A DNA stretch of 64,000 bases, taken from NCBI RefSeq assembly GCF_003449035.1, contig NZ_QRGB01000001.1, positions 1,426,001 through 1,490,000 of the forward strand. The letters run 5' to 3'. The DNA is from Pedobacter indicus. GTDB lineage: Bacteria > Bacteroidota > Bacteroidia > Sphingobacteriales > Sphingobacteriaceae. The notes below the pieces were generated by a model. That model made no database searches. It saw only the letters and a list, made by a program, of their open reading frames with translations, and was not told the origin of the DNA. This document shows positions 47,133 through 63,812 of the stretch, piece after piece. Made by a program: the position numbers and the translations under genes. How positions within the stretch are numbered: the first letter of the stretch is position 1; every line of letters begins with the position of its first letter.

Positions 47133-49244
47133 GTGAGCAAAAAGAATACATATAAAAATAAGTTTCTTCAACAGAATCCACAGCTGTTTCGATATGCTTT
47201 GATGTTTTTCTGTGTGGCTATCATCACCACATTTTTACCTAAGCACCCTCGTTTCCGATTTGAATTTGAAAAGGGCAAGATATGGTTGAATGAAGATCTG
47301 GTTTCACCTTACAACTTTGCGATCCTTAAAACGTCAGAAGAGTTAGCAAATGACCGAGACGAGATACTCCAGTCTATCAATCCGATCTATAATTTTCAGT
47401 CAAAAACTGGTCCCGATCAAATATCGCGGATGCAGACTGATCTGAAAACAAAATGGGACGCTACTACTTTCGATCCCGAAGACGAACAATTCTATATGGA
47501 GCTCGCTACGGATATCCTGACAAAAATCTATGCAGATGGAGTCTTATCGCCCGCAAAGAAGTTCCAGATTGATGATGAACATTATAATTTCACACTCCTA
47601 CGCGATAAAATTTCAACCACGAAGAATACTGCAGACGTCTTTACCCAAGAAACAGCCTTAGTGTACGCAGATGAAATCATACGAGCAAATAACCGTATTG
47701 AGCATAAAGAATGGTTAAGGCGAATTATTTCTGATTATATTCAAAATAATTACATCTATAATGAACAACTTACCGAGAGTCTTGAAAAAGACGCTTTAGC
47801 CAATATTTCGACTACCCGAGGAATGGTTCAAAAAGGAGAGCTTATTATCGCCGAAGGTGCAACCATTAACAACGAGGCATATCAGAAAATAGAATCCTTG
47901 CGAAATGCCTATGAAGAGGAGGCGAGAATAGGAGGGGATATCAAGGTCGTTATCTTGGGTCAAGTGCTCATAGTCGGGATGATCGTCTTTCTTTTAATGG
48001 CCTTCCTTTATTTGTTTCGGAAAGATATCTATAATGATAATCGACTGCTTTCGTTGATCCTTCTTGTCATAACCAGCATGTTGGTTCTCTTGTCTTGGGC
48101 GGTTACCATTAAGTTGCCAAATCTATACTTCATCCCATTTTGTATCGTACCGATCATTATTCGGATTCTGTTTGATACGCGAATGGCACTGAATATCCAT
48201 CTTTTAATGGTATTGGTTGCAGCATATTTTGTGCCCAATAGTTTTGAATTTGTCTTTCTGCAGTTGACAGCCGGTATGGTGGCTATATATAGCATCAAAA
48301 CACTGATTAAAAGAGAACAATTTCTCCTGTCAGCTCTACTGATACTTGCAACCTATGTCGTAGCTTATTTGGGAATGGTGCTGATTCGTAATGGAAATGT
48401 TGATGATATTCGTTGGGTTGATTTTGTACCCTTTATCGTCAGCGTTGTTCTGACACTTCTCGCTTATCCACTAATTTACGCTTTCGAACGTTTCTTCGGC
48501 ATCACATCAGATGTGACCTTGATGGAGCTTACCAACACCAACTCACAATTGCTTCGAGAGATGTCGTACAAAGCGCCGGGGACTTTTCAGCATTCCCTGC
48601 AAGTGGCGAACCTTGCAGAGGCAGCAATCTATCAGATTGGAGGCAACACCTTGCTTATTCGTGCCGGTGCGCTTTATCACGATATTGGCAAAATTGTCAA
48701 TCCTCAATATTTTATTGAAAATCAGACCAAAGGCTATAACCCCCATGATGGGCTCACTTTCGAACAAAGTGCGCAGATCATAATCTCACATGTCTCCAAA
48801 GGTATTGAAATGGCGCGTAAAGCTAATTTGCCTGAAGAGATCATTGATTTTATCAAAACCCATCACGGTACTACCCGAGTGGATTATTTCTACCAGTCAT
48901 ACATCAAGACATTTCCAGAGAAATTTGTAGATGAAGACCTGTTTCACTATCCGGGGCCAATTCCTTTTTCAAAAGAGACGGCAGTGCTTATGTTAGCTGA
49001 CTCTGTTGAGGCCGCATCAAAAAGTATCAAAGAGCCTGATGCGAAAAGTATCAGCAATTTGGTTGACAAGATTATTGATTACAAGGTTGAACAAAATCAA
49101 CTTAGAAATAGTGATATCACTCTTCAGGAGGTCGAGAAGATCCGGGAGATTTTTAAAAATATGCTCATGAGTATTTATCATGTTCGGGTTGATTACGATA
49201 TCAAAAAAGATAAAAAAACTGAGAGCCAGCCAACAGGGAATTAA
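47133..49244 (+). CDS. 7TM-HD membrane phosphohydrolase, PgpH-like
   Basis: A 703-residue membrane protein. Residues 1-270 hold an N-terminal helix and an extracytoplasmic 7TMR-HDED sensor domain; residues 270-470 hold seven membrane helices; residues 480-690 hold an HD domain with the metal motif HDIGK (His516, Asp517) and FQHSLQVANLAE. In Listeria, PgpH of this layout breaks down cyclic di-AMP. The same role is probable here but not proven. The start is GTG 47133, with an in-frame stop 13 bases upstream. A terminator-less 68-base gap leads to tRNA-Ser. Confidence 0.92.
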   Translation: MSKKNTYKNKFLQQNPQLFRYALMFFCVAIITTFLPKHPRFRFEFEKGKIWLNEDLVSPYNFAILKTSEELANDRDEILQSINPIYNFQSKTGPDQISRMQTDLKTKWDATTFDPEDEQFYMELATDILTKIYADGVLSPAKKFQIDDEHYNFTLLRDKISTTKNTADVFTQETALVYADEIIRANNRIEHKEWLRRIISDYIQNNYIYNEQLTESLEKDALANISTTRGMVQKGELIIAEGATINNEAYQKIESLRNAYEEEARIGGDIKVVILGQVLIVGMIVFLLMAFLYLFRKDIYNDNRLLSLILLVITSMLVLLSWAVTIKLPNLYFIPFCIVPIIIRILFDTRMALNIHLLMVLVAAYFVPNSFEFVFLQLTAGMVAIYSIKTLIKREQFLLSALLILATYVVAYLGMVLIRNGNVDDIRWVDFVPFIVSVVLTLLAYPLIYAFERFFGITSDVTLMELTNTNSQLLREMSYKAPGTFQHSLQVANLAEAAIYQIGGNTLLIRAGALYHDIGKIVNPQYFIENQTKGYNPHDGLTFEQSAQIIISHVSKGIEMARKANLPEEIIDFIKTHHGTTRVDYFYQSYIKTFPEKFVDEDLFHYPGPIPFSKETAVLMLADSVEAASKSIKEPDAKSISNLVDKIIDYKVEQNQLRNSDITLQEVEKIREIFKNMLMSIYHVRVDYDIKKDKKTESQPTGN

Positions 49245-49312: not shown

Positions 49313-49399
49313 GGAGAGGTGCCTGAGTGGCCGAAAGGAACAGTTTGCTAAACTGTCGTACTGGAAACGGTACCGCGGGTTCGAATCCCGCTCTCTCCG
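49313..49399 (+). tRNA. tRNA-Ser (anticodon GCU)
   Basis: The cloverleaf is complete. Acceptor GGAGAGG (49313-49319) pairs with TCTCTCC (49392-49398) with a G-U at the base; the discriminator is G. The anticodon stem CAGTTT-GCT-AAACTG gives anticodon GCU, reading AGC and AGU. A long variable arm (CTGGAAACGGTACC region) marks a class II serine tRNA. The T arm is GCGGG-TTCGAAT-CCCGC. CCA is not encoded. Length is 87 bases. Confidence 0.97.
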
Positions 49400-49430
49400 C
49401 AACTTTATAAGCTAAAGAAGACCGGGAAAA

Positions 49431-49463
49431 GGTTGCTAGTTAACTAGCAACCTTTTTTCTTTT
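49431..49463 (+). terminator. Rho-independent terminator after tRNA-Ser
   Basis: GGTTGCTAGTT (49431-49441) is followed at once by its exact complement AACTAGCAACC (49442-49452) and a T-rich run with one C. An AAAA run before the stem makes it potentially bidirectional. Confidence 0.9.
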
Positions 49464-49543: not shown

Positions 49544-50101
49544 GTGAAGGAACATTTTTCTTTTAAAGGCTTTTCCGAAAATACTTCGGAAAAGATATTT
49601 AGGGAATATTATGCTCGCTTGAGCTATTTTGCATTCAAGTTTGTCAATGACAAGGATGTCGCTGAAGATTTGGTTCAGGACGCATTTCTGGCGTATTGGA
49701 ATTCCAAAAAGCAAATTCCTTATCACCCTAAAGCCATAAAAGATTTCCTGTATTCATCCGTAAAAAACGCTGCTCTCAATGTTCTTAAACGACAAAAAGT
49801 AAAGGAACGCTATTTTTCCCTAAGAACTGAAGATGATATTGAAAATAGATCTGTTCTCGACAATATGATTGAGGCTGAGGTGATAAATGACGTTCATCGT
49901 GCCATTGCTCAGCTGCCCCAAAGCTGTAGAAATGTTTTTATGCTTGCCTACTTCGACGGACTTAGTAACCCCAAAATAGCGGAGAAATTAAAAATCAGCG
50001 TCAACACAGTCAGAAGCCACAAGCAAAACGGACTGCGGATCTTACGAGGGCAACTCAAACCCGAATTATTCGTCACCATCCTCGCAGTATTACTGAAATA
50101 A
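49544..50101 (+). CDS. ECF sigma factor, FecI-like
   Basis: A 185-residue sigma factor with region 2 (DKDVAEDLVQDAFLAYWNSK) and region 4 (AIAQLPQSCRNVFMLAYFDGLSNPKIAEKLKISVNTVRSHK). It is of the type that pairs with a FecR anti-sigma factor. The GTG at 49544 is the only start in reach of region 2. A TTG at 49489-49491 and TATTATTG at 49512-49519 (one base off the -7 consensus, 20 bases apart) could be its promoter. It is the first gene of the carbohydrate operon that runs to 61886, and probably drives the SusC gene and its followers. Confidence 0.93.
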   Translation: MKEHFSFKGFSENTSEKIFREYYARLSYFAFKFVNDKDVAEDLVQDAFLAYWNSKKQIPYHPKAIKDFLYSSVKNAALNVLKRQKVKERYFSLRTEDDIENRSVLDNMIEAEVINDVHRAIAQLPQSCRNVFMLAYFDGLSNPKIAEKLKISVNTVRSHKQNGLRILRGQLKPELFVTILAVLLK

Positions 50102-50168
50102 ATTTTCAATTTTCTTTAGTCTTTTTTCTTACTCAAGTTTTCTTAATAAGAACAAAGCCTAAATTACA

Positions 50169-51323
50169 TTGGATCCATACGAGTTATCGAAATTAATTTC
50201 CAAGCATATACAAGGAAAAACTTCCGAAGCAGAGGAGTGGCAATTAGCACAATGGCTCGACGAAGATTCGGAGAATCAAGAACTGTTTGAACGCCTAGTT
50301 GAGGCGGAACAATTAGAACACGGTCTGAAGTATTTTGACTCGCTCGATGTCGATTCCTCTTGGAAAAAAGCCAAGAAAAGCAGACTGATCAGTAGGTCAA
50401 AGAAAGCACTACCTTACATTGGTTATGCAGCTACGATCGTTGGTATCCTGTTTTCTATCAGCCTCTTCTTTGCTGATAGGTCGCAAAGTCATCCTTCAGA
50501 GCAAAGTCGACAAGTTTCGGTGCCGGATCAACATCCGCTTATACAAGGGGCTAACAAAGTGTCGCTGACCTTTTCCGATGGAAAAGTCGTCAGTCTTGAC
50601 GAAAACTTCATAAGCATTTCGTTAGAACATGGCGGTATATTCTCCAATAACGACGGCGAGTTGAGATTTACTAATGAATCGCAACGAGGTGATTATTCTC
50701 ATATTTATCATAAACTGTCGGTTCAAAAGGCGGGTACTTACAGAGTTGTTTTACCTGATGGTACAAAAGTCTGGTTAAATGCCTTGTCCGATTTGAAGTT
50801 TCCTGCTGCGTTTTCCGAAAGTGATCGTAAAGTACATTTAACCGGCGAAGCCTATTTTGAAGTTGCACCCGATCGTTCCAAACCCTTTATAGTCGAAGTC
50901 AACGACAATCGTATCGAAGTCCTGGGTACACACTTTAATATAAACTCTTATGACTCCAAATGGAAAGCTACCCTGTTCGAGGGAAGCATCAAAGTTTGGA
51001 ATCAATACGGTTCAGAGCTACTGAGTCCTGGACAGGAGGCAAGTATTGTCGACCGTGAAATCACAATAGCAAAAGCCAATGTAAAAAAGGCAACTGCCTG
51101 GCGCAATCGAGAGTTCTATTTCGAGAATGAATCCATGAGCAGCATTCTAAAGGAGCTCGCGCGATGGTATGATTTTGAACTAACTCAACCTGCTGCGGTA
51201 GATAGAAAAAGCTACTCGGGTAGTATAAGTCGCAATCTGGAATTAACACAGGTACTAAAAGTATTAAGTTCTCTTACGGGCTATCAATTTCGAATTGACA
51301 ACGGGAAGCTTATTTATAACTAA
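50169..51323 (+). CDS. FecR-family anti-sigma factor
   Basis: A 384-residue single-pass inner membrane protein. The cytoplasmic N-terminus (about 75 residues) should bind the sigma factor. The membrane segment is YIGYAATIVGILFSISLFF (about 82-100). The FecR domain contains HKLSVQKAGTYRVVLPDGTKVWLNA, then LTGEAYFEVAPDRSKPFIVEV. A C-terminal DUF4974-type domain, from FYFENESMSSILKELARWYDFEL, is expected to contact the receptor's STN domain. The start is TTG (50169), with a stop just upstream. The gene lies 67 bases after the sigma gene and 29 bases before SusC. Confidence 0.93.
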   Translation: MDPYELSKLISKHIQGKTSEAEEWQLAQWLDEDSENQELFERLVEAEQLEHGLKYFDSLDVDSSWKKAKKSRLISRSKKALPYIGYAATIVGILFSISLFFADRSQSHPSEQSRQVSVPDQHPLIQGANKVSLTFSDGKVVSLDENFISISLEHGGIFSNNDGELRFTNESQRGDYSHIYHKLSVQKAGTYRVVLPDGTKVWLNALSDLKFPAAFSESDRKVHLTGEAYFEVAPDRSKPFIVEVNDNRIEVLGTHFNINSYDSKWKATLFEGSIKVWNQYGSELLSPGQEASIVDREITIAKANVKKATAWRNREFYFENESMSSILKELARWYDFELTQPAAVDRKSYSGSISRNLELTQVLKVLSSLTGYQFRIDNGKLIYN

Positions 51324-51352
51324 TTAATAAACTAACAATCTAATCTAAAACT

Positions 51353-54300
51353 ATGAAATCTTTTTATCGCATTTTAAAGTTTAACCTGCTCTTCATGCTG
51401 GTTTTTGCTTTGTCTGCTTCTGCGGAGATTAAGGCGCAAGACGTCTCTCTCCATGTAAAAAGTGGTACGTTGGCGACTGTTTTTTTACAGATATCCGAAC
51501 AGACAGGCTACAAGTTTATTTATGATGATGCACTGATATCAAAAGTGCCAAAAGTATCTGTACAAGTTAAAAATAAAGACGTATCCGAAGTGCTGGGGGA
51601 GGTGTTAGAAGACACTGGCTTTGGTTTTGAAATCATTGAAGAAACGGTAGTGGTCAGTCGTCGAAGTGCTCAATCCGCTCCCGCAAACACCGCCTCAAAA
51701 GAAAGTCACCAACAAACCATTCAGGGCCGCGTTGTGGATGTAGATGGTAATAGCTTGCCCGGCGCAACTGTTTCTGTTCAGGGTAAAGCTGGCAGTGCAG
51801 TTGTAACCGACGCAAATGGTAATTTTTCTATCGTTGCGCAAGAAGGAGACATTATTGAAGCTAGTTTTATTGGCTATAATCCAAAACGAGCAACCGTTAC
51901 CGAAGGATCCAGCGTGACGATCTTACTTGAACCATCATATGCCGAGCTGGGTGAAGTAGTCGTAATAGGGTATGGTACAATGAAAAAGCGGGATGTAACC
52001 GGTGCCGTGGCTCAGGTGAAAGGAGTTGATTTAAAGAATATGCCTGTACGGAACGCCACCGAAGCATTACAAGGTAAGACCTCAGGAGTTACTGTGACGT
52101 CGACTGGTGGCAGTCCCGGTACACCACCCGCAGTACGAATCCGCGGTATTGGAACGGTCAATAACAATAACCCTTTGTATGTCGTTGACGGCCTTCCTCA
52201 GACCGATATCGGTTGGCTAAACTCAAATGATATTGAATCTATGGAAATCCTAAAAGATGCTTCTGCATCTGCGATCTACGGTACGCGCGCAGCAAATGGT
52301 GTTGTGATGATCACAACAAAGCGCGGCAAAATGGGAGGCGATGTGCTTCGAAGTAATGTTACTTTTGATGCCTATTATGGTATTCAAAATCCCGTTAAGA
52401 CCTATGAAATGATGAATGCGTCTGAATTTATGGATTATAAAAACTTGGCAAACCAAAACGCCGGCTTAGATCCTTACTTTACTGCATCTCAAAAAAATCA
52501 AGTACTCGATTTCCTGCGGTCAAATTTTGGTAATGACGAAGGGACAAACTGGTGGGAAGAGATTAACCAGGAAAATGCTCCTGTTCAAAGTTATAATGTA
52601 ACCCTTTCCGGTGGCGTAAAAGGCCTAGCATATAATTCAAGTATCGGTTATATGGATCAAAAAGGTATTATCGAGGGTTCAGATTATGATCGGATCAGTT
52701 GGCGTACGAACTTTGATCATGATTTAAAAGATTGGTTCAAATTATCAGGTAATGTCGGTATCGTTAGTGAGAGTAGAAGAAATGTGCTGGAAGGCAGCCC
52801 GGGTTTCAACACAGCTTTTATCGCGTTCGTCGCCGATCCTATTTCGCCAGTTTTTCGTACGGGTCTAAGCAATATTCCCTCGTTTCTGGAAGATGCTTTT
52901 TTTATGAATGAGATCGATCCAAATAATCCTTATTCTTTTTATAGCCCGATACTGATGACTAATAAAGAGAATCCTGCATCACAGGTGAATATCTATAAGG
53001 ATAACGTATGGAAAGGCTTGCAGTTGAAAGGTGGATTGGCGGCGGATATTCAGATTACCGATTACTTGAAATACAGAGGAAGCTTCGGTTTGGACCTGAG
53101 TCGAGGTGGTTCTGACGGATTTAGTCCCCGCTACCGCTTGGACAATGAACAATTCGTTACAGATGCAACTGTGAGCAAATTTGTCAGTCAGAGCGATTAC
53201 TGGGTGCTTGAAAACACATTGACTTTCGAGAAAAGTTTCGATGATCATAATGTTATGGTCATGGTTGGTGCTTCAGCAGAGGAAACTAAATACGAAGAGA
53301 CAGGAGCATCTAAACAAGGCTTGGTTACAAACGATGAAAGTCAACGAATCATCAACGCAGGTACGATCAATCCCGGCGCTTCCGGTTACAAATCCGAAAG
53401 TGCACTGGCATCTTATTTCAGCCGCGCTTTCTATTCCTATAAAAATCGTTATCTGTTTACAGCAAACTTCAGAAGAGACGGTTCGTCCAACTTTGGTGAT
53501 GGTCAAAAATGGGGAAATTTCCCCTCGTTTTCGGCAGGCTGGGTTTTCTCGGATGAAGATTTTATGGAGAATCTGACTTGGCTGACCACTGGTAAGTTGC
53601 GCGCGAGTTGGGGTCAGATCGGAAATCAGGCTATTGGTGGTGGAGCTTATCGAAACACCTATTCAGGAAATCTCGGATATTATTTATTCGGTGTTCACGA
53701 TCCCTATCTACGCGGCGGAAATAATTACCGCGGTAACCCGAATGTGCGCTGGGAAACAACAGAGCAGACGGATATCGGTGTAGAGCTTTCTTTATTTGAT
53801 GGAAAGGTAGATGTGGTGGCAGATTGGTTTCAGAAAACGACCGATGGAATGTTATTGAATGTTCCTTTGCCGACTTATCTTGGTTTCCCTAACTATCCAT
53901 GGACCAATGCCGGTATCGTAGAGAATAAGGGATTGGAACTGGATGTCGCCTACCATAATAATGACGGTGAATTTCAATACACTATCTCCGGTAACCTCTT
54001 CACATTTAAAAATGAAGTAATCAGTTTGGGCGGTGGTGAACCGATTTTGGGCGGTGGATGGATCAACTATACCACAACACGCACCGAAGAACGAATGCCT
54101 ATTGGGTATTTCTACGGACTCAAAACAGATGGTATTTTCCAAAGCCAGGCCGAGGTCGATAATTATTTTCAGGAAGGTGCACGACCAGGTGATCTGCGCT
54201 TTGTCGATGTCAATAGCGATGGGAAAATCGATAACAATGACCGAACCAATATTGGAGATCCTTTCCCCGACTTTTCCTATGGCTTAAACTTCAGCTCTGC

Positions 54301-54760
54301 TTATAAGGATTTCGACTTCCTTGTGAGTATTCAGGGAACGGTAGGAAACGAAATTATGAATATCAAGAAAATAGATATGAACTCGGGCGTGGGCTGGTAT
54401 AATGCACCTAAAGATCTGATGAAGAAAGCCTGGTCGCCGACAAACCCAAGTAATGAACAGTTTGCTATCAACGCAACGAATACAAATAACTTGCAGATTT
54501 CTGACTGGTTGGTTGAAGATGGAAGCTATATGAGGCTGAAAAATATTCAGGTAGGTTATTCGCTACCTCAGTCGGTTGTAACAAAAGCTGGTATTAACCG
54601 CGTACGTTTCTGGGCGGGTGCTTATAACTTGTTGACTATCACTAATTATACAGGTTTAGATCCAGAGATTGGAAGTTCCTCGCCGTTGAGTAGTGGTGTG
54701 GATCAGGGCTATTACCCATTAGCAAAATCATTTATGTTCGGCATCAATGCAACTTTTTAA
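51353..54760 (+). CDS. SusC/RagA-type TonB-dependent receptor with STN domain
   Basis: A 1135-residue outer membrane transporter. A signal peptide ends near AEIKAQ. Residues about 31-98 are an STN domain (LATVFLQISEQTGYKFIYDDAL, DVSEVLGEVLEDTGFGF), the signal domain that contacts FecR. A carboxypeptidase-regulatory-like domain follows (GRVVDVDGNSLPGATVSV), then the plug (LGEVVVIGYGTMKKRDVTGAV, NPLYVVDGLP, SAIYGTRAANGVVMITTKRG), and a barrel ending AKSFMFGINATF. With the SusD neighbour it should bind and import a glycan or glycoside. The STN domain ties import to sigma-factor release. Confidence 0.96.
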   Translation: MKSFYRILKFNLLFMLVFALSASAEIKAQDVSLHVKSGTLATVFLQISEQTGYKFIYDDALISKVPKVSVQVKNKDVSEVLGEVLEDTGFGFEIIEETVVVSRRSAQSAPANTASKESHQQTIQGRVVDVDGNSLPGATVSVQGKAGSAVVTDANGNFSIVAQEGDIIEASFIGYNPKRATVTEGSSVTILLEPSYAELGEVVVIGYGTMKKRDVTGAVAQVKGVDLKNMPVRNATEALQGKTSGVTVTSTGGSPGTPPAVRIRGIGTVNNNNPLYVVDGLPQTDIGWLNSNDIESMEILKDASASAIYGTRAANGVVMITTKRGKMGGDVLRSNVTFDAYYGIQNPVKTYEMMNASEFMDYKNLANQNAGLDPYFTASQKNQVLDFLRSNFGNDEGTNWWEEINQENAPVQSYNVTLSGGVKGLAYNSSIGYMDQKGIIEGSDYDRISWRTNFDHDLKDWFKLSGNVGIVSESRRNVLEGSPGFNTAFIAFVADPISPVFRTGLSNIPSFLEDAFFMNEIDPNNPYSFYSPILMTNKENPASQVNIYKDNVWKGLQLKGGLAADIQITDYLKYRGSFGLDLSRGGSDGFSPRYRLDNEQFVTDATVSKFVSQSDYWVLENTLTFEKSFDDHNVMVMVGASAEETKYEETGASKQGLVTNDESQRIINAGTINPGASGYKSESALASYFSRAFYSYKNRYLFTANFRRDGSSNFGDGQKWGNFPSFSAGWVFSDEDFMENLTWLTTGKLRASWGQIGNQAIGGGAYRNTYSGNLGYYLFGVHDPYLRGGNNYRGNPNVRWETTEQTDIGVELSLFDGKVDVVADWFQKTTDGMLLNVPLPTYLGFPNYPWTNAGIVENKGLELDVAYHNNDGEFQYTISGNLFTFKNEVISLGGGEPILGGGWINYTTTRTEERMPIGYFYGLKTDGIFQSQAEVDNYFQEGARPGDLRFVDVNSDGKIDNNDRTNIGDPFPDFSYGLNFSSAYKDFDFLVSIQGTVGNEIMNIKKIDMNSGVGWYNAPKDLMKKAWSPTNPSNEQFAINATNTNNLQISDWLVEDGSYMRLKNIQVGYSLPQSVVTKAGINRVRFWAGAYNLLTITNYTGLDPEIGSSSPLSSGVDQGYYPLAKSFMFGINATF

Positions 54761-54779
54761 CCAATTAAAGACATAGACA

Positions 54780-56447
54780 ATGAAAACACATCAATATATT
54801 TTAGGAGCAAGTATCGTGGCACTTTCATTGGGTGCTTGCAGTGAGTCATTTCTTGATAGGGATCCACTGGGAAGTTTGGCCGAAGAAGAATATTTCCAAA
54901 CAGATAACGCGGCTATGAAGCTGATAACGGACTGTTATGGTCCTATGCTTGATGGATGGGGATATACAGTTAACAAGATCGCTTTGGGAGATGAATCTGT
55001 CGATAACGCCGACGGTGGAGGCTCCGATCCCGGCGATCGGCCGCAAACAATCGAAGTTGGTCGCGGTCGCCCTTTAGCTTCCAATGCGCTTTTGCAGGAA
55101 GCCTGGAGTAACCGATTTCTTGGAATCGGAAAAGCGAACCTGGCGATTCAGAATATCGAAGCGAATTGGGATAAGCTGATCGCCAACGGAACCAGCGTTT
55201 CAGAAGAGACGAAAGCCAGGTATATTGCAGAGGCGAAATTTCTCAGAGCCTGGTATTATTTTGATCTGGTTTGGGTGTTTAAAGAAGTTCCTTTAATTGT
55301 AGAACCTCAGGATCCAGAAGCCAGAGTACCCAAAAGTAGCACCGAAGATTTGAGGATACAGATCTATAAAGATTTGGATGAAGCAATTGCCGTTGCTTCT
55401 TTTCCGCGTAGTTCGGAGATGCCAAGAGAAGAGAAGGGGAGAGCAAACAAAGATGCTGCTTATGCCCTTAAAGCCAGAGCAGCTTTATTTTTCGCTGGCC
55501 TAATGGAAGCAGGTAAAATGAACGGGAATGCAGACGAAGAATATGTAGTCGCCAAAGCTGCCGCTGAACAGGTCGTTCTGCATGGTAACTTGAGTCTTCT
55601 GCCGGACTTTCAGGATCTGTTTAGAGGAGATTATCAAGTCGGCCCTTTTTCCGAAGAGTCGATCCTCCCTGTGATCAGAGCCTACCTGCCTGAAGTAAAC
55701 TTTGGAGGCGATGCTTTTGCTATTATGAATGTTGGTCGAAACAATGTTGGCGGATGGGGTGGTAATACGCCAACTCGCGACCTCGCAAGTGAATATGAAG
55801 TTGAAGATCCACGTAAAATGTTCACCATCATCAGCCACGGTGATATTTTCAAGACAGCAAGTGGTGGCGAGGAAGTACACAATTACCGAGGTTACTATAA
55901 TGATTTTAATTTGCAACACAGCCGAAAAGCCTTCGTGCCACAGCAATATCGCGTACAAGGCAATTTGCAGCGAAGCAATTGGGGGCCTTATTGGATTCGC
56001 TATTCCGAAGTGCTGCTAATCTATGCAGAGGCATTGTTAAAAACCAATGCCAGTCCCACAGAAGTTGTGAAATATATCAACGAAGTTCGTAGACGAGCAT
56101 TTGTGACAAGTTCCAAAACCGATGAACCAGCGATATTTAGAAAGTTCCAAGAAGGACTGAAACCGATAAGCGAATCGGAATTTACCAGTAAATTTGCGGT
56201 AAAACCGACTGATAATTTGATGGAGGCCATTAAACATGAGCGTAGGGTTGAATTAGCCTTAGAAGGTTTCCGACTATATGACTTGGTGCGGTGGAACGAA
56301 TACGCGCCGGTAATGAAAGCCTTCTATACAAAATATGGGTTTGCTGATAAAGGAATTAATGCAGGAGAAAACAGCTGGCCATTTCCAATCCCACAAACCG
56401 AAATCGATCGGTCAAACGGCATCTTAGAACAAAATTCCAATTATTAA
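54780..56447 (+). CDS. RagB/SusD-family nutrient-binding outer membrane lipoprotein
   Basis: A 555-residue lipoprotein, with lipobox LGAC at residues 17-20. The SusD/RagB family phrases are SFLDRDPLGSLAEEEYF, AEAKFLRAWYYFDLVWVFKEVPLI, WGPYWIRYSEVLLIYAEALLK and ELALEGFRLYDLVRWN near the end, finishing PFPIPQTEIDRSNGILEQN. It forms the lid of the SusC transporter at 51353 and contributes most of the ligand-binding surface. The gap to SusC is 19 bases. Confidence 0.96.
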   Translation: MKTHQYILGASIVALSLGACSESFLDRDPLGSLAEEEYFQTDNAAMKLITDCYGPMLDGWGYTVNKIALGDESVDNADGGGSDPGDRPQTIEVGRGRPLASNALLQEAWSNRFLGIGKANLAIQNIEANWDKLIANGTSVSEETKARYIAEAKFLRAWYYFDLVWVFKEVPLIVEPQDPEARVPKSSTEDLRIQIYKDLDEAIAVASFPRSSEMPREEKGRANKDAAYALKARAALFFAGLMEAGKMNGNADEEYVVAKAAAEQVVLHGNLSLLPDFQDLFRGDYQVGPFSEESILPVIRAYLPEVNFGGDAFAIMNVGRNNVGGWGGNTPTRDLASEYEVEDPRKMFTIISHGDIFKTASGGEEVHNYRGYYNDFNLQHSRKAFVPQQYRVQGNLQRSNWGPYWIRYSEVLLIYAEALLKTNASPTEVVKYINEVRRRAFVTSSKTDEPAIFRKFQEGLKPISESEFTSKFAVKPTDNLMEAIKHERRVELALEGFRLYDLVRWNEYAPVMKAFYTKYGFADKGINAGENSWPFPIPQTEIDRSNGILEQNSNY

Positions 56448-56454
56448 TGACAAC

Positions 56455-59400
56455 ATGAAACAAAGCCACGCCATCCTATTTTTACTACTTTCTCTAATCA
56501 TCGTCAGTTGCAAGCCGAGCAGGAAGCAAGTGAATGTTCTTTATTTTTCGACTCAAACAGAAAGTGGGTCACTGAATGATATTCGTTCAGTGACCGAAGG
56601 CTGGAATATTATCAGCAGCTCGGATCCTGTAATTTTTTCTGAGGATTCTATCACAGATATTAGCGCCATTGTTCTGCGGGTGAGCGATCTGAATCAACTG
56701 GATCACCGTGCAATACCACGTTTAAAGCGCTACCTCGAAGCCGGTGGTGGCGGAATAATCGCTCTTCGTGATACTGCGCTGGTAGATAAAGGGTGGCCTT
56801 GGCTGAAAAATTGGATGGCGCAGGAGAATGGTGCGATGATCGATCAGGATCAAGGCCGCCTGGCTGTTCTAGACGCGAACTATACAGCAGAAGAGTTGAC
56901 TGCTGCGTTGGACTTTGTCATTGGCAAAAACAAAATGCCTGACTTTGATGACTTGGCAACGTTGGCGGTTCCCGACAGCAGCCGCTATACCCGTGAGGTT
57001 CTGGTCGAGGGGCTTGATGAACCACTTCAAATGGCAATTCTGCCAAATAAAAATATTTTATTTGTTGAGAGAAAAGGTGGAATAAAACTTTATGAGGAAG
57101 CAAATGGCGAAACAAAAAGTATTGCCAATATCGATGTGTTCAGTGGTATTGAGGATGGTTTATTGGGTGTCGCGGCAGACCCAAATTTCGAAAAGAACCA
57201 CTGGATCTATCTGTATTATGCCGTAGGTGGCGATGAATCGATCAACCGTCTGGCTCGTTATGAATTGCATGGAGATAGTCTTGCGCTAGGTACCGAAACC
57301 AAGGTATTGGAGATACCCACACAGCGTATCTATTGCTGTCACGCAGCAGGTTATGTCGCTTTTGATAACGACGGTTTGCTTTATTTAGCAGTAGGGGACA
57401 ATACCAACGCAGAGGAAACCGAAGGTTTTACACCGGTAGATGAGCGATCGGGTCGCTCGCTTTCTGATGATCAGGCTACGGCTGCTAATACCGATGATCT
57501 CCGGGGGAAAATTCTGCGTATCCGACCTCTTGATGACGGTGGCTATGCCATCCCCGACGGGAATCTGTTTCCAAAGGATGGGTCGGGTGGCCGACCGGAA
57601 ATCTATATGATGGGGGCACGAAACCCTTTCCGGTTTAGTGTAGATTCAAAAAATGGCTATCTCTATTTCGGCGAGGTAGGGCCTGATACAAAGGTAAAAG
57701 CCAGTACAGGCGAGCTTATGAGTTTCGATGAAATTAACCAAGTCCGGGAACCGGGCTTCTTTGGTTGGCCTTATTTTCTGGGAAATAATGAGGTGTTTCC
57801 GATGTACGATTATGAAACGAAGATACCAGGACCCGGAAAGGATCCTGCAAAGCCAATCAATGATTCACCCAACAATACGGGTGAGCGCGAGCTGCCACCT
57901 GCTCAACCAGCTATGATATGGTATGGGAAAGGTGATTCCAAAGAATTTCCCTTAGTGGGCAGTGGCGGGGCCAGCGCAATGGCCGGTCCTGTTTATTATC
58001 GGTCGGATTTTACCGACGCTCCTTATTCTTTATCTGAATATTACGACGGAAAACTGTTTATCTACGAATGGATACGCGGGTGGATCATGGCGGTGACTTT
58101 TGATGAAGATGATAATTATTTGCGAATGGAGCCTTTCCTGGATCACCTGAGCTTTGATGCGCCAGTCGACTTTCAGTTTGCAGACGACGGTTCGATTTAC
58201 ATATTGGAATACGGAACTAATTGGTTTTCAAAGAACACCAATGCCAGATTGCTTCGTATCCAGTATGTTGAAGGAAACCGGGCACCAAAAGCTGAAATTG
58301 AAATCGACAAACAGTATGGCGCTGCACCAATGAAGGTAAACCTCTCTGCTAGCGGGTCGAGCGACTATGATGCTGAAGATCAACTGAGCTACGAGTGGCG
58401 GATTGATGGAAAGACACTAGCAGGCGAGGAGCTAAGCTATACGTTTGACAAAAACGGAATCTATGAAGTCAGTTTAACTGTTACGGACGATCAGGGCGAC
58501 AGCGGTAAGGCGACAAGTAAGGTTTTCGTCGGAAATACACCACCGGACGTGGCTATCCATACCAAAGCAAACCGTTCTTTTTATTGGGATGGGGTGGATC
58601 TGGATTATGATATCCAAGTGGCTGATAAGGAAGAGGATATCGATCCTTCGCGTATCAATATTTCCTTCGGATTCATCCCACATGGTCGCGACGCTGCTAC
58701 TATTTTAACTGGCAGTCAGGATGTTTCCAGTCTCCAGTACATTCGAGGCAAGCAGATGATTGCTGCGCTTGATTGTAAATCTTGCCACTCACTAGAGCAG
58801 GAGTCGGTCGGGCCAACGTATTTAGCTATCGCTGCACGCTACAATGGTGAACCTAATGCAAAGAAGCAGCTGGCTGAAAAAATCATCAAAGGGGGCAGCG
58901 GTAATTGGGGTGAAAGAGCTATGACACCTCACCCAGCAATCTCCAACGAGGAAGCCGAAGAAATGGTGAACTACATTTTATCCTTAACCGATGAACAGTC
59001 CAGCTTGCCTCTGCAGGATGTGATTCCACTGAAAGAACATGAAAGCAAAGGAGATGAGGGGGCCTATTTGCTCAATGCGACCTATCGAGATCGTGGAGCG
59101 AATGGCATCGATGAACTACAGAGTCGCGATTATATCCTGCTGAAAAGCCCGCTTGTACAAGTCGAAGAGTTTGATGAGGGAAATTTGCGGATTGGAACTA
59201 TTACTACGCAAGCTCTTTCTTACGCTCTAGGTATTGTCGATGGTAAATATATGAAATTCAACGCAATTGACCTGAGTCATGTAAAGAACCTAACTTATCG
59301 GATACAACCAAACGGTGCTGGAGGAACAATTGAGCTGCGAACTGGAAGCATGGATGGTGAAATTCTAAGCAGCCTGCAAATTCCCGCAGCTTCAGGCGAC

Positions 59401-59532
59401 ATCAGTAAGATTGGATGGAAAGAATTTTCAGCGCCACTGAAGGATAGCCAAGGACATCAGGACTTGTATTTTGTATTTAAAGGGGGCGATCAAGGCTTTT
59501 TCAATATAGATTGGATCAGGTTTGACCGATAG
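56455..59532 (+). CDS. Multi-domain sugar dehydrogenase lipoprotein (ThuA-like, GDH, PKD, cytochrome c, CBM6-like)
   Basis: A 1025-residue lipoprotein (lipobox IVSC). Residues 23-155 are a degenerate ThuA-like domain (IPRLKRYLEAGGGGIIALRD, GWPWLKNW). Residues about 170-600 are a glucose/sorbosone dehydrogenase propeller (EDGLLGVAADPNFEKNHWIYLYY, DDLRGKILRIRP, ARNPFRFSVD), usually PQQ-dependent. Residues 610-690 are a PKD domain. A class I cytochrome c follows, with CKSCH at 774-778 and probable axial Met823. The last 130 residues resemble a CBM6-type sugar-binding domain (GAGGTIELRTGSMDGE). It likely oxidises a sugar in the periplasm and passes electrons to its own haem. Confidence 0.9.
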   Translation: MKQSHAILFLLLSLIIVSCKPSRKQVNVLYFSTQTESGSLNDIRSVTEGWNIISSSDPVIFSEDSITDISAIVLRVSDLNQLDHRAIPRLKRYLEAGGGGIIALRDTALVDKGWPWLKNWMAQENGAMIDQDQGRLAVLDANYTAEELTAALDFVIGKNKMPDFDDLATLAVPDSSRYTREVLVEGLDEPLQMAILPNKNILFVERKGGIKLYEEANGETKSIANIDVFSGIEDGLLGVAADPNFEKNHWIYLYYAVGGDESINRLARYELHGDSLALGTETKVLEIPTQRIYCCHAAGYVAFDNDGLLYLAVGDNTNAEETEGFTPVDERSGRSLSDDQATAANTDDLRGKILRIRPLDDGGYAIPDGNLFPKDGSGGRPEIYMMGARNPFRFSVDSKNGYLYFGEVGPDTKVKASTGELMSFDEINQVREPGFFGWPYFLGNNEVFPMYDYETKIPGPGKDPAKPINDSPNNTGERELPPAQPAMIWYGKGDSKEFPLVGSGGASAMAGPVYYRSDFTDAPYSLSEYYDGKLFIYEWIRGWIMAVTFDEDDNYLRMEPFLDHLSFDAPVDFQFADDGSIYILEYGTNWFSKNTNARLLRIQYVEGNRAPKAEIEIDKQYGAAPMKVNLSASGSSDYDAEDQLSYEWRIDGKTLAGEELSYTFDKNGIYEVSLTVTDDQGDSGKATSKVFVGNTPPDVAIHTKANRSFYWDGVDLDYDIQVADKEEDIDPSRINISFGFIPHGRDAATILTGSQDVSSLQYIRGKQMIAALDCKSCHSLEQESVGPTYLAIAARYNGEPNAKKQLAEKIIKGGSGNWGERAMTPHPAISNEEAEEMVNYILSLTDEQSSLPLQDVIPLKEHESKGDEGAYLLNATYRDRGANGIDELQSRDYILLKSPLVQVEEFDEGNLRIGTITTQALSYALGIVDGKYMKFNAIDLSHVKNLTYRIQPNGAGGTIELRTGSMDGEILSSLQIPAASGDISKIGWKEFSAPLKDSQGHQDLYFVFKGGDQGFFNIDWIRFDR

Positions 59533-59569
59533 TTAATTTTTAAGAGTAAACCCGTATTTAACCTAAATT

Positions 59570-60793
59570 ATGAAGGGCTCGATCCGCATAAGATTGTCAT
59601 TTCTTATGTTTTTTGAATATTTTATTTGGGGAACTTGGTATGTAACCATGGGGACTTACCTCTTCTCCAATTTTGATGCTACTGCGGTGCAGGTTGGCTC
59701 TTCATACGCGAATCTGTCGATCGCTGCAATCATTTCCCCATTTTTTGTCGGGTTGATTGCTGATCGCTTTTTTGCAGCCCAAAAAGTATTGGGCGTGCTG
59801 CATCTCGCTGGTGCCGCAACGCTCTTCTATGTAAGTACAGTTACGGAATTTAACGGGTTTTGGTGGTTGATATTGCTTTACACATTATTGTACATGCCAA
59901 CTATGTCACTTGCCAACTCTGTTTCCTTTCATCAAATTAAAGATGGTGGTAAGGAGTTTCCATTTATCCGTGCGTTCGGTACACTCGGGTGGATTGCATC
60001 CGGACTGTTAATAGGCTTTATGGGACTAGAGAGTTCGGTGTGGACCTTCCGGATAGCTGCTGTTGCTTCTCTATTGTTAGGTGTTTTCAGTTTCTGCTTA
60101 CCTAGCACGCCAGTGAAAAAAAGAAAGAATGCAAGCCTATCTTCAATTTTAGGTTTAGATGCTTTAACCTTATTTAAGAGTCGCTCTTTTTCTGTTTTCT
60201 TTTTCTCTTCAATCGCTATCTGCATTCCGTTATCATTCTATTATAGCTTCACCAATTCCTTTTTGAATGATATAGGCATGGTCAATGCAGCAAGTAAAAT
60301 GACTTTGGGTCAAGTCTCTGAATTTTTATTTATCCTATTGATCCCTTTGCTGTTCCGCCGCTTAGGTGTAAAAATGATGATCATTATTGGTATCGTCGCC
60401 TGGATTGTCCGTTATGTATTATTTGCCTTCGGTAACGTAGAAGCCGAGTTATGGATGCTTTATGGTGGAATTATTTTGCATGGTATCTGCTATGACTTCT
60501 TTTTTGTTACTGGTCAGATCTATACAGACAAGAAAGCCGGTGAATCGATCAAAAGTGCTGCGCAAGGTATTGTTACCTTTGCTACCTATGGCGTTGGTAT
60601 GCTCATTGGTTCCTACTTGTCCGGAATGGTAACGGAACGATTTGCCGCTAATCCAGGAAGTGAATTCAATTATAACTGGAAAATGGTATGGCTTGCCCCA
60701 TGTGCAATCTCCTTCATCGTTTTAATTATCTTTGCCTTGTTTTTTAATGATAGATCGTTTGAAAAGCAAGGCAACACTAGTAAATTAACTTAA
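59570..60793 (+). CDS. MFS permease of the nucleoside/sugar:H+ symporter type
   Basis: A 407-residue inner membrane protein with 12 helices. The first segment, RLSFLMFFEYFIWGTWYVTMGTYL, and LLYMPTMSLANSVSFHQIKDGGKEFPFIRAFGTLGWI are typical of the NupG-like group. In Bacteroidota such permeases are often next to sugar oxidoreductase genes, suggesting uptake of a sugar or sugar derivative rather than a nucleoside. The gene begins 37 bases after the dehydrogenase and ends 19 bases before the Gfo/Idh/MocA gene. It probably imports the oxidised product or the free sugar. Confidence 0.88.
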   Translation: MKGSIRIRLSFLMFFEYFIWGTWYVTMGTYLFSNFDATAVQVGSSYANLSIAAIISPFFVGLIADRFFAAQKVLGVLHLAGAATLFYVSTVTEFNGFWWLILLYTLLYMPTMSLANSVSFHQIKDGGKEFPFIRAFGTLGWIASGLLIGFMGLESSVWTFRIAAVASLLLGVFSFCLPSTPVKKRKNASLSSILGLDALTLFKSRSFSVFFFSSIAICIPLSFYYSFTNSFLNDIGMVNAASKMTLGQVSEFLFILLIPLLFRRLGVKMMIIIGIVAWIVRYVLFAFGNVEAELWMLYGGIILHGICYDFFFVTGQIYTDKKAGESIKSAAQGIVTFATYGVGMLIGSYLSGMVTERFAANPGSEFNYNWKMVWLAPCAISFIVLIIFALFFNDRSFEKQGNTSKLT

Positions 60794-60812
60794 ATTTAAA
60801 TCCGTAAGAAAT

Positions 60813-61886
60813 ATGAATCCTATTCGAGTTTTAGTTGTTGGTTGTGGTAATATGGGTGCTTCCCATGCCACTGCTTATCATCATTTGGAAGGTTTTGAAA
60901 TATGTGGTTTGGTTGCCAGAGGCGAAAGTAAAGTCAGCCTAAACAATAAACTGGGTGGAGGCTACGAACTCTTTACCGATTACGAAGAGGCTTTGAAAAA
61001 AACCAAACCCGATGCTGTTTGCATTTCTACTTACCCTGATACCCATGAAGCTTATGCTATCCGGGCTTTTGAAAATGGTTGCCATGTATTTGTTGAGAAG
61101 CCTCTAGCAGATACAATTGAGGGCTCAATTCGCGTGGCAGAAGCAGCTAAAAGGTATAATAAGAAACTAGTTGTCGGTTATATTCTACGTTATCACCCGT
61201 CTTGGGAACGTTTTATCGAATTAAGTCAGGAACTCGGCAAACCCTTGGTTATGCGGATGAATCTGAACCAACAAAGTCACGGTGTCATGTGGGATGTGCA
61301 TCGCAACCTGATGAAAAGCCTGAGCCCGATTGTCGACTGCGGCGTGCATTATATCGATGTGATGTGCCAGATGACGAATTCCAAACCGCTACAGGTGACG
61401 GCCATTGGTGCACGATTGACTGATGATATCCCAGCAGATAATTATAATTACGGACAGCTTCAAATCCGTTTTGAAGATGGATCGGTCGGTTGGTATGAAG
61501 CGGCTTGGGGACCGATGATCAGCGAAACTGCATTCTTTGTAAAGGATGTTATGGGGCCAAAAGGTTCGGTTTCCATCGTTGCTAAGGAAGCAAGCGGTTC
61601 GGGTAAGTCGGACTCTGTTGAATCACATACAAAAACCGAATCCTTGCGATACCATTATGCAGATATTGATGAGAAAAATGCATTTGTCAAAGAAGATCGG
61701 TGGATTGATCTGGAAGATGAACCCGACCATCAAGAGCTCTGCAACCGAGAACAACGGTTTTTCTTAAAAGCCATCCGAGAGAACATCGATTTATCCTCCT
61801 CCATCGAAGACGCTATCAATAGTCTCAGAATTGCTTTTGCATGTGATGAGTCGGTCAGGACGGGCCAAGTTGTGAAATTAACTTAA
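60813..61886 (+). CDS. Gfo/Idh/MocA-family oxidoreductase
   Basis: A 357-residue NAD(P)-dependent sugar oxidoreductase. The Rossmann motif is GCGNMG (10-15) and EKP at 95-97 is the cofactor and catalysis motif. VDCGVHYIDVMCQM is the typical active-site helix with Asp and His. No export signal is present, so it is cytoplasmic. Enzymes of this family oxidise or reduce a sugar hydroxyl, or interconvert keto-sugars. Here it is the last gene of the SusC/SusD operon, before a strong terminator, and so would act on the imported product. Confidence 0.93.
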   Translation: MNPIRVLVVGCGNMGASHATAYHHLEGFEICGLVARGESKVSLNNKLGGGYELFTDYEEALKKTKPDAVCISTYPDTHEAYAIRAFENGCHVFVEKPLADTIEGSIRVAEAAKRYNKKLVVGYILRYHPSWERFIELSQELGKPLVMRMNLNQQSHGVMWDVHRNLMKSLSPIVDCGVHYIDVMCQMTNSKPLQVTAIGARLTDDIPADNYNYGQLQIRFEDGSVGWYEAAWGPMISETAFFVKDVMGPKGSVSIVAKEASGSGKSDSVESHTKTESLRYHYADIDEKNAFVKEDRWIDLEDEPDHQELCNREQRFFLKAIRENIDLSSSIEDAINSLRIAFACDESVRTGQVVKLT

Positions 61887-61905: not shown

Positions 61906-61937
61906 AAAAAGGCGTTCTATTATCGGAACGCCTTTTT
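61906..61937 (+). terminator. Rho-independent terminator ending the SusC/SusD operon
   Basis: GGCGTTC (61911-61917) pairs with GAACGCC (61926-61932) around an 8-base loop, with A5 before and T5 after the stem. It begins 20 bases after the Gfo/Idh/MocA stop. Confidence 0.92.
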
Positions 61938-62105: not shown

Positions 62106-62147
62106 CTTGGAAATTCGTTTTGATTGATCTCGAAAAAACAAACATGT

Positions 62148-63812
62148 ATGTCAGAAAGCAAGTCGAATACTTCCGTCTTTAACAAAATCCCTAAACTCGT
62201 TATCCACCAGCCTGTGTTTTATCCGGCATTGATCACTATTATCCTGAGTGTCGTGTTGGCGCTTATATTCACAGATCAAGCCCAGAGCAGTTTCGAAAAT
62301 GTTCAAAATATCGTATCTGAAAAAGGGGGGTGGATTTACACACTATCCGTTAATGCCTTTATCGTTTTTTGTATTTATATGGCTTTCGGTAAGTATGGAT
62401 CCATCCGGATTGGCGGACCCGAAGCACGGCCTGAGTTTAAGTCGACGGCCTGGTTTGCCATGTTGTTCAGTACAGGGATCGGAAACGGGCTGGTGCTTTT
62501 TAGTATCGCCGACCCGGTTCGCGATTTTATGAATCCACCACGATTATCTGCTGATGCAGATCCGACCGCTATTGCTCAAGAAGCTATCAATTTCTCGTTT
62601 CTTCATCATGGTATCCACGGGTGGGCTATTTATTCGGTTATCGGCTTGGCATTAGCTTATTTCACTTATAATAGAAAAATGCCTCTGACCATACGTTCTG
62701 CCTTTTACCCTTTGCTAGGCGAACGAATTCATGGGTGGATCGGTAACCTGATTGATGTTGTGGCGGTTGTGGCCACACTATTTGGCCTAGCAACCACGAT
62801 GGGCTTTGGCGTTGGACAGATTAATGCGGGGTTTACGCATGTGTTTGGGATTCCCCACAGTTTGTTGGTTCAGTATCTGATTATTTTAGCGATTACCGCC
62901 ATTGCCACTATTTCCGTAGTTTCTGGAGTTAACCGAGGGATAAAATTCCTGAGTGAGATGAATGTAGGCGTTGCTGTCATCATCTTTCTTATGGTCCTGG
63001 TTCTTGGCCCTACGGCTTTTATCCTAAAAGGCTTTGTGCAAAACGTCGGTAGTTACTTGATCAACTTTGTCGACCTGGCTACCTGGTCGGGCGCCTACGA
63101 CGATAGCAGCTGGCATAATAACGTAACCCTAATGTATTGGGGTTGGTGGGCGTCCTGGTCGCCGTTCGTCGGGACATTCATTGCGCGGGTTTCGAAGGGT
63201 AGAACAATCAAGGAGTTCGTACTTGGCGTACTCTTTTTGCCAGCTATGGTCACCTTCCTATGGTTCTCAGCTTTTGGCGGTACAACCATGCTCGGCTTAA
63301 TCGACGGGGATTTTTCCCTGGCGGCAGCAGTCGACGATAACATATCGACAGCGCTGTATGTGTTTTTCGAGAAGTTCCCACTTGCTATGCTGCTGAAGAT
63401 ATTGGGAATGGTATTGATTTGTAGTTTTATTATCACTTCGGCTGACTCCGGTGCGCTCGTTGTAGACGGAATTACCTCTGGAGGTAACAAGAAGACACCC
63501 GCTTTGCAACGGATTATCTGGGCATCATTAGCAGGTTGTATCGCCGCAGCTCTGCTGACCGGTGGTGGCCTTGGAACCTTACAGGCAGCGGTGACGATAT
63601 CCGGATTACCTTTCGCAATCTTGCTGGTAGCGATGTGCGTTTCCTTGTATATCGGAGTCCGTGAAGATTTCAACCTGAATAGACGACGAACGAAATTGAA
63701 GGACGAGGAAACATACAAAGCGATGCTCAAGAAAATCCTGGAAGAAGAACAGAAGTTTGACCCAGAAGGTAGACTATTGAAAAATGAAATCGAACATACT
63801 GAAAGCAAATAA
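62148..63812 (+). CDS. BCCT-family betaine/choline/carnitine transporter
   Basis: A 554-residue inner membrane transporter of 12 helices. The Trp-rich signature is MYWGWWASWSPFVGTFIARVSKGRTIKEF, and GNGLVLFSIADPVRDF and HHGIHGWAIYSVIGL fit helices 3-5. Members use sodium or proton gradients to bring in quaternary amines such as glycine betaine. MSESKSNTSVF from ATG 62148 is taken as start; a TTG at 62124 adds eight residues. The highly charged C-terminal tail (KDEETYKAMLKKILEEEQKFD) could be a sensor, as in BetP. The universal stress protein gene follows after one base. Confidence 0.93.
   Translation: MSESKSNTSVFNKIPKLVIHQPVFYPALITIILSVVLALIFTDQAQSSFENVQNIVSEKGGWIYTLSVNAFIVFCIYMAFGKYGSIRIGGPEARPEFKSTAWFAMLFSTGIGNGLVLFSIADPVRDFMNPPRLSADADPTAIAQEAINFSFLHHGIHGWAIYSVIGLALAYFTYNRKMPLTIRSAFYPLLGERIHGWIGNLIDVVAVVATLFGLATTMGFGVGQINAGFTHVFGIPHSLLVQYLIILAITAIATISVVSGVNRGIKFLSEMNVGVAVIIFLMVLVLGPTAFILKGFVQNVGSYLINFVDLATWSGAYDDSSWHNNVTLMYWGWWASWSPFVGTFIARVSKGRTIKEFVLGVLFLPAMVTFLWFSAFGGTTMLGLIDGDFSLAAAVDDNISTALYVFFEKFPLAMLLKILGMVLICSFIITSADSGALVVDGITSGGNKKTPALQRIIWASLAGCIAAALLTGGGLGTLQAAVTISGLPFAILLVAMCVSLYIGVREDFNLNRRRTKLKDEETYKAMLKKILEEEQKFDPEGRLLKNEIEHTESK

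Follow-up and report, generated by a model that had tools for sequence, protein, structure and literature searches.

How could a Bacteroidota operon that couples a SusC/SusD transporter to regulators of its own make use of a sugar while encoding no recognizable enzyme for cleaving glycosidic bonds? This question is raised by seven open reading frames (ORFs) on the plus strand of Pedobacter indicus, at positions 49544-61886 of the 64,000-nucleotide stretch analyzed here (contig NZ_QRGB01000001.1 of assembly GCF_003449035.1, positions 1,426,001 to 1,490,000; hereafter the window), which belongs to a genome of 3.47 Mb that is 99.99% complete. In order, they encode an extracytoplasmic function (ECF) sigma factor, a FecR protein, SusC, SusD, a fusion lipoprotein, a major facilitator superfamily (MFS) permease and a Gfo/Idh/MocA oxidoreductase (hereafter Gfo). 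The ORF coordinates bear out the shared strand and, exactly, the gaps of 67, 29, 19, 7, 37 and 19 bases reported in a first-pass annotation of this DNA. Its claim that no hydrolase is visible was borne out as well: when we searched the seven proteins with Pfam and NCBIfam models at curated cut-offs, none matched a glycoside hydrolase (GH) or polysaccharide lyase family in Pfam. We propose, at about even confidence, that these genes would form a self-sensing operon for the oxidative use of a sugar compound, resembling the 3-keto-glycoside route except in its dehydrogenase. The part of the operon most worth following is the fusion lipoprotein, in which a propeller with an altered active site is joined to a cytochrome.

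The case for oxidation begins with the neighborhoods of the last gene (60813-61886, +), whose product matches GFO_IDH_MocA in Pfam, carries no signal peptide and is a proposed keto-sugar reductase. Matches at an E value of 1e-60 or better were found in 25 of the 150 genomes searched (24 and the window's own). The 31 orthologs outside the host genome are 70-81% identical, with none weaker among the candidates scored down to E 1e-60, and Lys96 (of EKP), Asp175 and His179 are invariant in 34 of 34 proteins. For 33 Gfo loci (26 matches taken as stretches, together with L040, L041, L043, L045 and L051 and with L039 and L052), we counted as partners the genes lying within three genes of Gfo on the same strand. 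The permease was a partner in 11 loci, the fusion in seven, a GMC oxidoreductase in five (accompanied in three of them by a Gluconate_2-dh3 small subunit) and the 3-keto-disaccharide hydrolase domain PF06439 in five, which were also recovered with Pfam's own model. No locus has more than one of fusion, GMC and PF06439; 17 of the 33 loci have one of the three, and 10 have a GMC enzyme or PF06439, both of which are marks of 3-keto-glycoside operons. As background, PF06439 occurs 179 times in about 65 Mb from 14 of the 24 genomes, or in about 2% of 7-kb neighborhoods, a rate that comes from genomes picked partly for having partners. The most telling Gfo locus (L140) contains a sigma-like gene recognized by eye, then FecR, SusC (60% identical), SusD (63%), the permease and Gfo, followed 17 bases on by a GMC gene, so that the dehydrogenase slot of an otherwise matching operon is taken by an unrelated GMC enzyme. 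The partners in 17 of 33 loci and the GMC enzyme in this slot favor the first-pass suggestion of oxidation, permease uptake and a cytoplasmic redox step, although that type of route had already been published (PMC9007349, PMC10628242).

Elsewhere, the host genome encodes three GMC proteins that are 50-62% identical to that of L140, and 13 PF06439 domains, none of them in the window. At E values up to 0.001 it has two PF03825 permease genes, the one in the window and one that adjoins a pair of GMC and small-subunit genes, a TIM-barrel sugar isomerase, ApbE and a Gfo protein. The locus of this other permease gene (L146; G000:C1 2360000-2375000) also encodes a protein with an FGE-sulfatase domain and is likely a keto-sugar locus.

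The neighborhoods of the fusion point in the same direction. Thirty-three fusion loci came from one scan of genome contigs, 15 of them at an identity of at least 57%. In seven of these 15 closest loci, six from five Parapedobacter strains and one from Pedobacter nyackensis, the permease and Gfo come directly after the fusion, and five of the seven have an extra Gfo protein upstream, in four cases directly before the fusion. The whole operon, for whose gene order the first-pass annotation had advised a search in relatives, is repeated in two Parapedobacter loci (L039 and L051) as sigma-FecR-SusC-SusD-[extra Gfo]-fusion-permease-Gfo, with 62-63% identity to the window in SusC and 65-66% in SusD but only 27-33% in sigma and FecR. 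Just before the sigma gene, both loci have a gene for a FAD-dependent oxidoreductase (98-1810 in L039 and 111-1832 in L051), a relative of which lies inside the L045 cluster.

In seven others of the 15 closest loci (five from Daejeonella, one from a Sphingobacterium metagenome-assembled genome [MAG] and one from a Bacteroidetes MAG), a PF06439 gene lies directly upstream of the fusion. The fusions of this branch are 57-62% identical to that of the window, and the arrangement holds in seven of its eight loci; the eighth (L042) begins at the contig end and has the downstream genes typical of the branch. Near fusions, PF06439 was called with a small custom profile and confirmed with Pfam in L038. 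Downstream of the fusion, loci of the Daejeonella branch carry a conserved set encoding an amidohydrolase, a pyridoxal phosphate enzyme, a small cytochrome c and a seven-bladed lactonase-like protein (L038 13280-17889 and, as far as the contigs reach, L042, L044, L046, L047, L049 and L050). Two more fusion-like proteins are encoded in the host genome itself; a PF06439 gene lies two genes upstream of one (L073), and the other (L074) has no PF06439 within four genes.

These neighborhoods bear on the idea in the first-pass annotation that oxidation is an alternative to hydrolysis. The operon encodes no hydrolase, in keeping with that idea, but bond cleavage would still be needed, and a cleaving enzyme adjoins the fusion in 7 of the 15 closest relatives, which comes near to overturning it. 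Yet no GH lies between SusC and Gfo in L039, L051 or L140, the loci with the same SusC/SusD pair, and the hydrolase-free core of the operon is conserved.

The fusion (56455-59532, +) is a 1025-residue lipoprotein with a lipobox cysteine at position 19. It consists of an N-terminal alpha/beta domain (56533-56922), a beta-propeller of the glucose/sorbosone dehydrogenase (GSDH) fold (residues 172-606; 56968-58272), a PKD domain (58276-58524), a class I cytochrome c domain (58744-58986) and a CBM6 carbohydrate-binding domain (59224-59526), the last four of which match Pfam. The N-terminal domain has no Pfam match of its own and appears ThuA-like from its predicted secondary structure and from a single pairwise comparison, in which it showed 25% identity over 72 residues (E 6e-9) to a ThuA protein that Pfam confirmed. 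The AlphaFold model of the fusion has a mean pLDDT of 81.8. In structure comparison, which covered residues 172-606, the nearest solved structures to the propeller were the aldose dehydrogenases 3a9g (Z 33.2, rmsd 2.8 Å over 321 residues), 2ism, 7cdy and 2g8s. No NCBIfam equivalog reached its cut-off for the fusion, and a search of the open-licence literature returned no paper describing a propeller-cytochrome fusion of this kind.

To examine its active site, we aligned 31 fusions, namely the window protein and one each from 30 of the 33 fusion loci (left out were L064, L066, L070 and the second copies in L039 and L056). All 31 keep the heme ligands Cys774, Cys777 and His778 (CXXCH, 774-778) and Met823, and all have His296, Arg389, Asn390 and Arg541. 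His296, which aligns with the catalytic histidine of soluble glucose dehydrogenase (sGDH), ends an equally invariant Cys294-Cys295-His296 motif (57334-57342), and the propeller shares with PF07995 both the fold and the catalytic His and Arg-Asn residues. By contrast, arginine occurs in none of the 31 at the positions aligned with the Arg pair that binds pyrroloquinoline quinone (PQQ; sGDH 406/408); these positions hold Ala, Ser, Asn, Gln, Gly or His and Val, Ile or Met, whereas all three ordinary GSDH proteins compared (two from the host genome and one from a relative) keep Arg-x-Arg. Near sGDH Lys377 the alignment is ambiguous (Ile540 or Arg541), and we make no claim there. Arg228, Asn229 and Arg406 have roles in sGDH too. 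Those of His144, Lys377 and Arg408 are described in PMC6881789. Vicinal disulfides are listed among the traits of bacterial PQQ alcohol dehydrogenases in PMC13384848, and the likeness of the Cys-Cys pair to them may reflect convergence or chance.

With the Arg pair missing, we do not accept the fusion as a PQQ enzyme at face value. The name "dehydrogenase lipoprotein" given to it previously is uncertain as to the cofactor. A search of the host genome for PqqE at E 0.001 found none, yet the PqqE cut-off was not reached in any control genome either, and seven of ten relatives had sub-cut-off matches only; PqqC was matched in no genome, which makes that search uninformative on absence. PQQ can also be scavenged. 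A bolder proposal, which we regard as unlikely, is that the fusion represents a new kind of sugar dehydrogenase that lost the PQQ arginines, rebuilt its site around Cys-Cys-His and Arg541 with a differently held or another cofactor, oxidizes a ring hydroxyl of a glycoside at the cell envelope, passes the electrons to its own cytochrome c and replaces GMC-type enzymes in SusC/SusD loci.

The genes ahead of the fusion supply both import and control. Adjacent SusC and SusD and a local regulator, predicted from domains (ECF sigma, FecR and the STN domain on SusC), are features of a polysaccharide utilization locus, but none of the seven proteins has a GH or polysaccharide lyase domain. Likewise, the operon encodes no recognized 3-dehydrogenase (LacA-type GMC or BT_2158/BT_2159 equivalog) and no PF06439 protein or eliminase. 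Falling outside the strict definition of either, it is therefore classed as neither a polysaccharide utilization locus nor a 3-keto-glycoside operon, although it probably works like the latter. A small glycoside or oligosaccharide would be bound and imported by the SusD/RagB lipoprotein (54780-56447, +; SusD_RagB in Pfam) and the SusC/RagA TonB-dependent transporter (51353-54760, +; TIGR04056, 867.5 bits). To judge from the domain order, its passage could be sensed by the N-terminal STN domain of SusC (residues 53-103), which would free the Bacteroidota-type sigma factor (49544-50101, +; TIGR02985, 148.2 bits against a cut-off of 126.4) from the FecR-type anti-sigma factor (50169-51323, +; FecR and FecR_C, with a hydrophobic stretch seen by eye at about residues 80-105) and so allow the operon to induce itself. 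The lipoprotein might bind the carbohydrate through CBM6 and oxidize it in the propeller, with the cytochrome c of the same protein taking up the electrons. The keto-sugar could then be cut by a 3-keto-disaccharide hydrolase or eliminase whose gene lies elsewhere, or in another step; it would enter the cytoplasm through the permease (59570-60793, +; Nuc_H_symport, PF03825, 389.1 bits against a cut-off of 25.9) and may be reduced there to an ordinary sugar by Gfo. The permease falls below the NCBIfam nucleoside permease TIGR00889 (386.8 bits against a cut-off of 446.1).

Several observations weigh against this oxidative reading. Pfam recognizes no cleaving enzyme among the seven proteins, and no result here fixes which carbon is oxidized. 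Gfo scores far under the NCBIfam cut-offs for glycoside/disaccharide 3-dehydrogenases (29.7 bits against 750 and 44.6 bits against 650), and it does not attain the cut-off of any NCBIfam equivalog. Sixteen of the 33 Gfo loci lack fusion, GMC and PF06439 within three genes (one, L122, begins near a contig end); many of these form syntenic groups (e.g., L125, L127, L129, L131, L137 and L138), and since loci are related by descent, locus counts overstate independence. The neighboring GMC enzymes, which we take to be LacA-type, are GMC_oxred and Gluconate_2-dh3 proteins in Pfam, and none reaches the cut-off of an NCBIfam equivalog. Around 17 distant fusion homologs (L053-L069) there is no match to the permease, Gfo or PF06439 (custom profile) within four genes, and in L060 and L061 the fusion stands next to a TIM-barrel isomerase; the association of the fusion with these partners belongs mainly to the near branch. 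Finally, GH78-type genes lie just upstream of the block in L041 and L043, and ADP-ribosylglycohydrolase-like genes in L040 and L045. These upstream genes would also suit an ordinary locus whose hydrolase was lost or lies elsewhere, where unlinked hydrolases cut the oligosaccharide imported by SusC/SusD and the oxidoreductases are side activities. The conservation of a hydrolase-free core in L039, L051 and L140 argues against this explanation, which we hold to be distinctly unlikely. We reject for the core the related possibility of an ordinary polysaccharide locus with an overlooked hydrolase, there being no such domain in the seven genes or in the operons with the same SusC/SusD pair.

The fusion could instead be an ordinary aldose dehydrogenase that oxidizes free aldoses at C1 to lactones with scavenged PQQ, the permease importing the aldonate or sugar and Gfo acting on an unrelated alcohol. 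Its nearest solved structures, its catalytic His and Arg-Asn pair, and the beta-propeller lactonase that follows the fusion in L038 (its cluster is present in five Daejeonella-branch loci) all fit such a role. The absence of the PQQ Arg pair in 31 of 31 fusions, the lack of a PqqE match at E 0.001 in the host genome (with no control above cut-off), the GMC enzyme in the slot of L140 and the PF06439 domains among the partners in relatives do not, leaving this a possibility to keep in mind but not a likely one. We consider it very unlikely that the operon serves the use of an anhydrosugar, inositol or a similar polyol, with Gfo as the first, oxidizing step of a levoglucosan or inositol type and the fusion only binding or shuttling electrons. 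In NCBIfam, Gfo does score best against UDP-GlcNAc 3-dehydrogenase, inositol 2-dehydrogenase and then levoglucosan dehydrogenase, and a levoglucosan operon is called analogous to 3-keto operons in PMC10628242; these scores, however, are all far under curated cut-offs, and Gfo is the last gene, has no signal peptide and stands behind a permease and an external heme protein. Most improbable of all is a plain uptake operon in which the propeller is a non-enzymatic scaffold for binding carbohydrate or protein, as in Hedgehog-interacting protein (HHIP). Propellers of HHIP are not known to have a redox role and are close by fold (Z 24-28), and the loss of the PQQ Arg pair would agree with such a function, but the invariance of the cytochrome c ligands in all 31 fusions and of His296, Arg389, Asn390 and Arg541 speaks for an enzyme.

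Both ends of the oxidative operon are marked by hairpins. A terminator-like hairpin with a T run (49424-49459, +; -22.4 kcal/mol, z -5.3) stands after a tRNA-Ser gene and before the sigma gene, and the terminator noted previously at the operon's 3' end is indeed present as a hairpin and T run at 61906-61937 (+; z -4.9); a generic terminator scanner reported neither. Given these hairpins, the seven genes are likely carried on one transcript. A promoter scan of the sigma-70 type, which does not cover Bacteroidota promoters, added nothing. Directly upstream lie a gene for a 7TM-HD membrane phosphohydrolase-like protein (47133-49244) and the tRNA-Ser(GCT) gene (49313-49400). No GH or polysaccharide lyase scored above cut-off among the ten upstream proteins scanned at 29.6-49.2 kb (a thiolase-like ORF at 45849-47027 and small overlapping ORFs were left out), where a DPP IV-type peptidase gave a sub-threshold match to Pectate_lyase22. 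Farther upstream, a GNAT acetyltransferase domain is fused to a carbon-nitrogen hydrolase domain (38378-39889). A BCCT betaine/choline-type transporter gene (62124-63812), 237 bases past the operon and behind its terminator, is probably a separate unit. In it and 9 of the 13 ORFs of the next 18.5 kb, the sole carbohydrate-cleaving candidate is a glucuronyl-esterase-like protein past the window end. About 4 kb after the operon, also past the window end, is the gene for a large redox-type protein with DUF7133, HEAT and cytochrome c domains and a GDSL-like part (L072 2622-5807; about 66.1-69.3 kb in window numbering). Near it on the minus strand are genes for the glucuronyl esterase-like protein, a TIM-barrel isomerase, an MR/MLE-family enzyme, a 2-hydroxyacid dehydrogenase and an MFS permease, and beyond these is another SusC/SusD pair.

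If our reading is true, hydrolase-independent sugar breakdown would gain an unrecognized dehydrogenase, and the transporter and reductase would be named as markers of such loci, making some GH-less operons in Bacteroidota genomes readable. Two unrelated redox enzymes, one of flavin type and one a propeller-cytochrome fusion, would be exchanged in the same operon slot, and caution would be due over automatic labeling of the fusion family as "PQQ-dependent".

An oxidize-first sugar route is not new as a kind, having already been published as 3-keto-glycoside breakdown. One of its dehydrogenases, LacA, belongs to the GMC proteins and is paired with a cytochrome c subunit. The lactose 3-dehydrogenase LacABC of Caulobacter and Pedobacter works with PF06439 proteins (PMC9007349), and the same paper describes oxidation in the periplasm, with genes for a transporter, a sugar epimerase and a sugar reductase nearby. 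In five of its 33 loci the Gfo ortholog group found here has a GMC enzyme as a neighbor, a further likeness to that route, but the operon itself has neither GMC nor PF06439, bears the propeller-cytochrome fusion in the dehydrogenase slot and has SusC/SusD and ECF/FecR control inside it. The GlycDH-OGE-hydratase-Gfo operon of A. tumefaciens follows a route of oxidation, elimination, hydration and Gfo reduction, in which, according to PMC10628242, 3-keto-glucose is the substrate reduced by Gfo to glucose. The scheme of oxidizing, cleaving and reducing a 3-keto sugar with Gfo would be shared; unlike that operon, ours has no TIM-barrel eliminase or hydratase gene, and its dehydrogenase has another fold. 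The B. thetaiotaomicron locus BT2156-BT2160 (NCBIfam BT_2158/BT_2159) resembles it as a Bacteroidota sugar locus that encodes a Gfo/Idh/MocA oxidoreductase, although Gfo here scores far under the cut-offs of these families. We know of no external cytochrome protein in BT2156-BT2160. With the soluble PQQ glucose/aldose dehydrogenases of PF07995, the fusion shares the propeller fold, catalytic His and Arg-Asn pair, differing in its lack of the PQQ Arg pair, its Cys-Cys before the His and its fused cytochrome c, PKD and CBM6 domains. A carbohydrate-binding module is also carried by the fungal AA12 pyranose dehydrogenase CcPDH. Like the fusion, CcPDH unites a cytochrome and a GSDH-fold propeller in one secreted sugar-oxidizing protein, as described in PMC6881789, but with an AA8 cytochrome b in place of the cytochrome c of the fusion and an identity to it of 12-13%.

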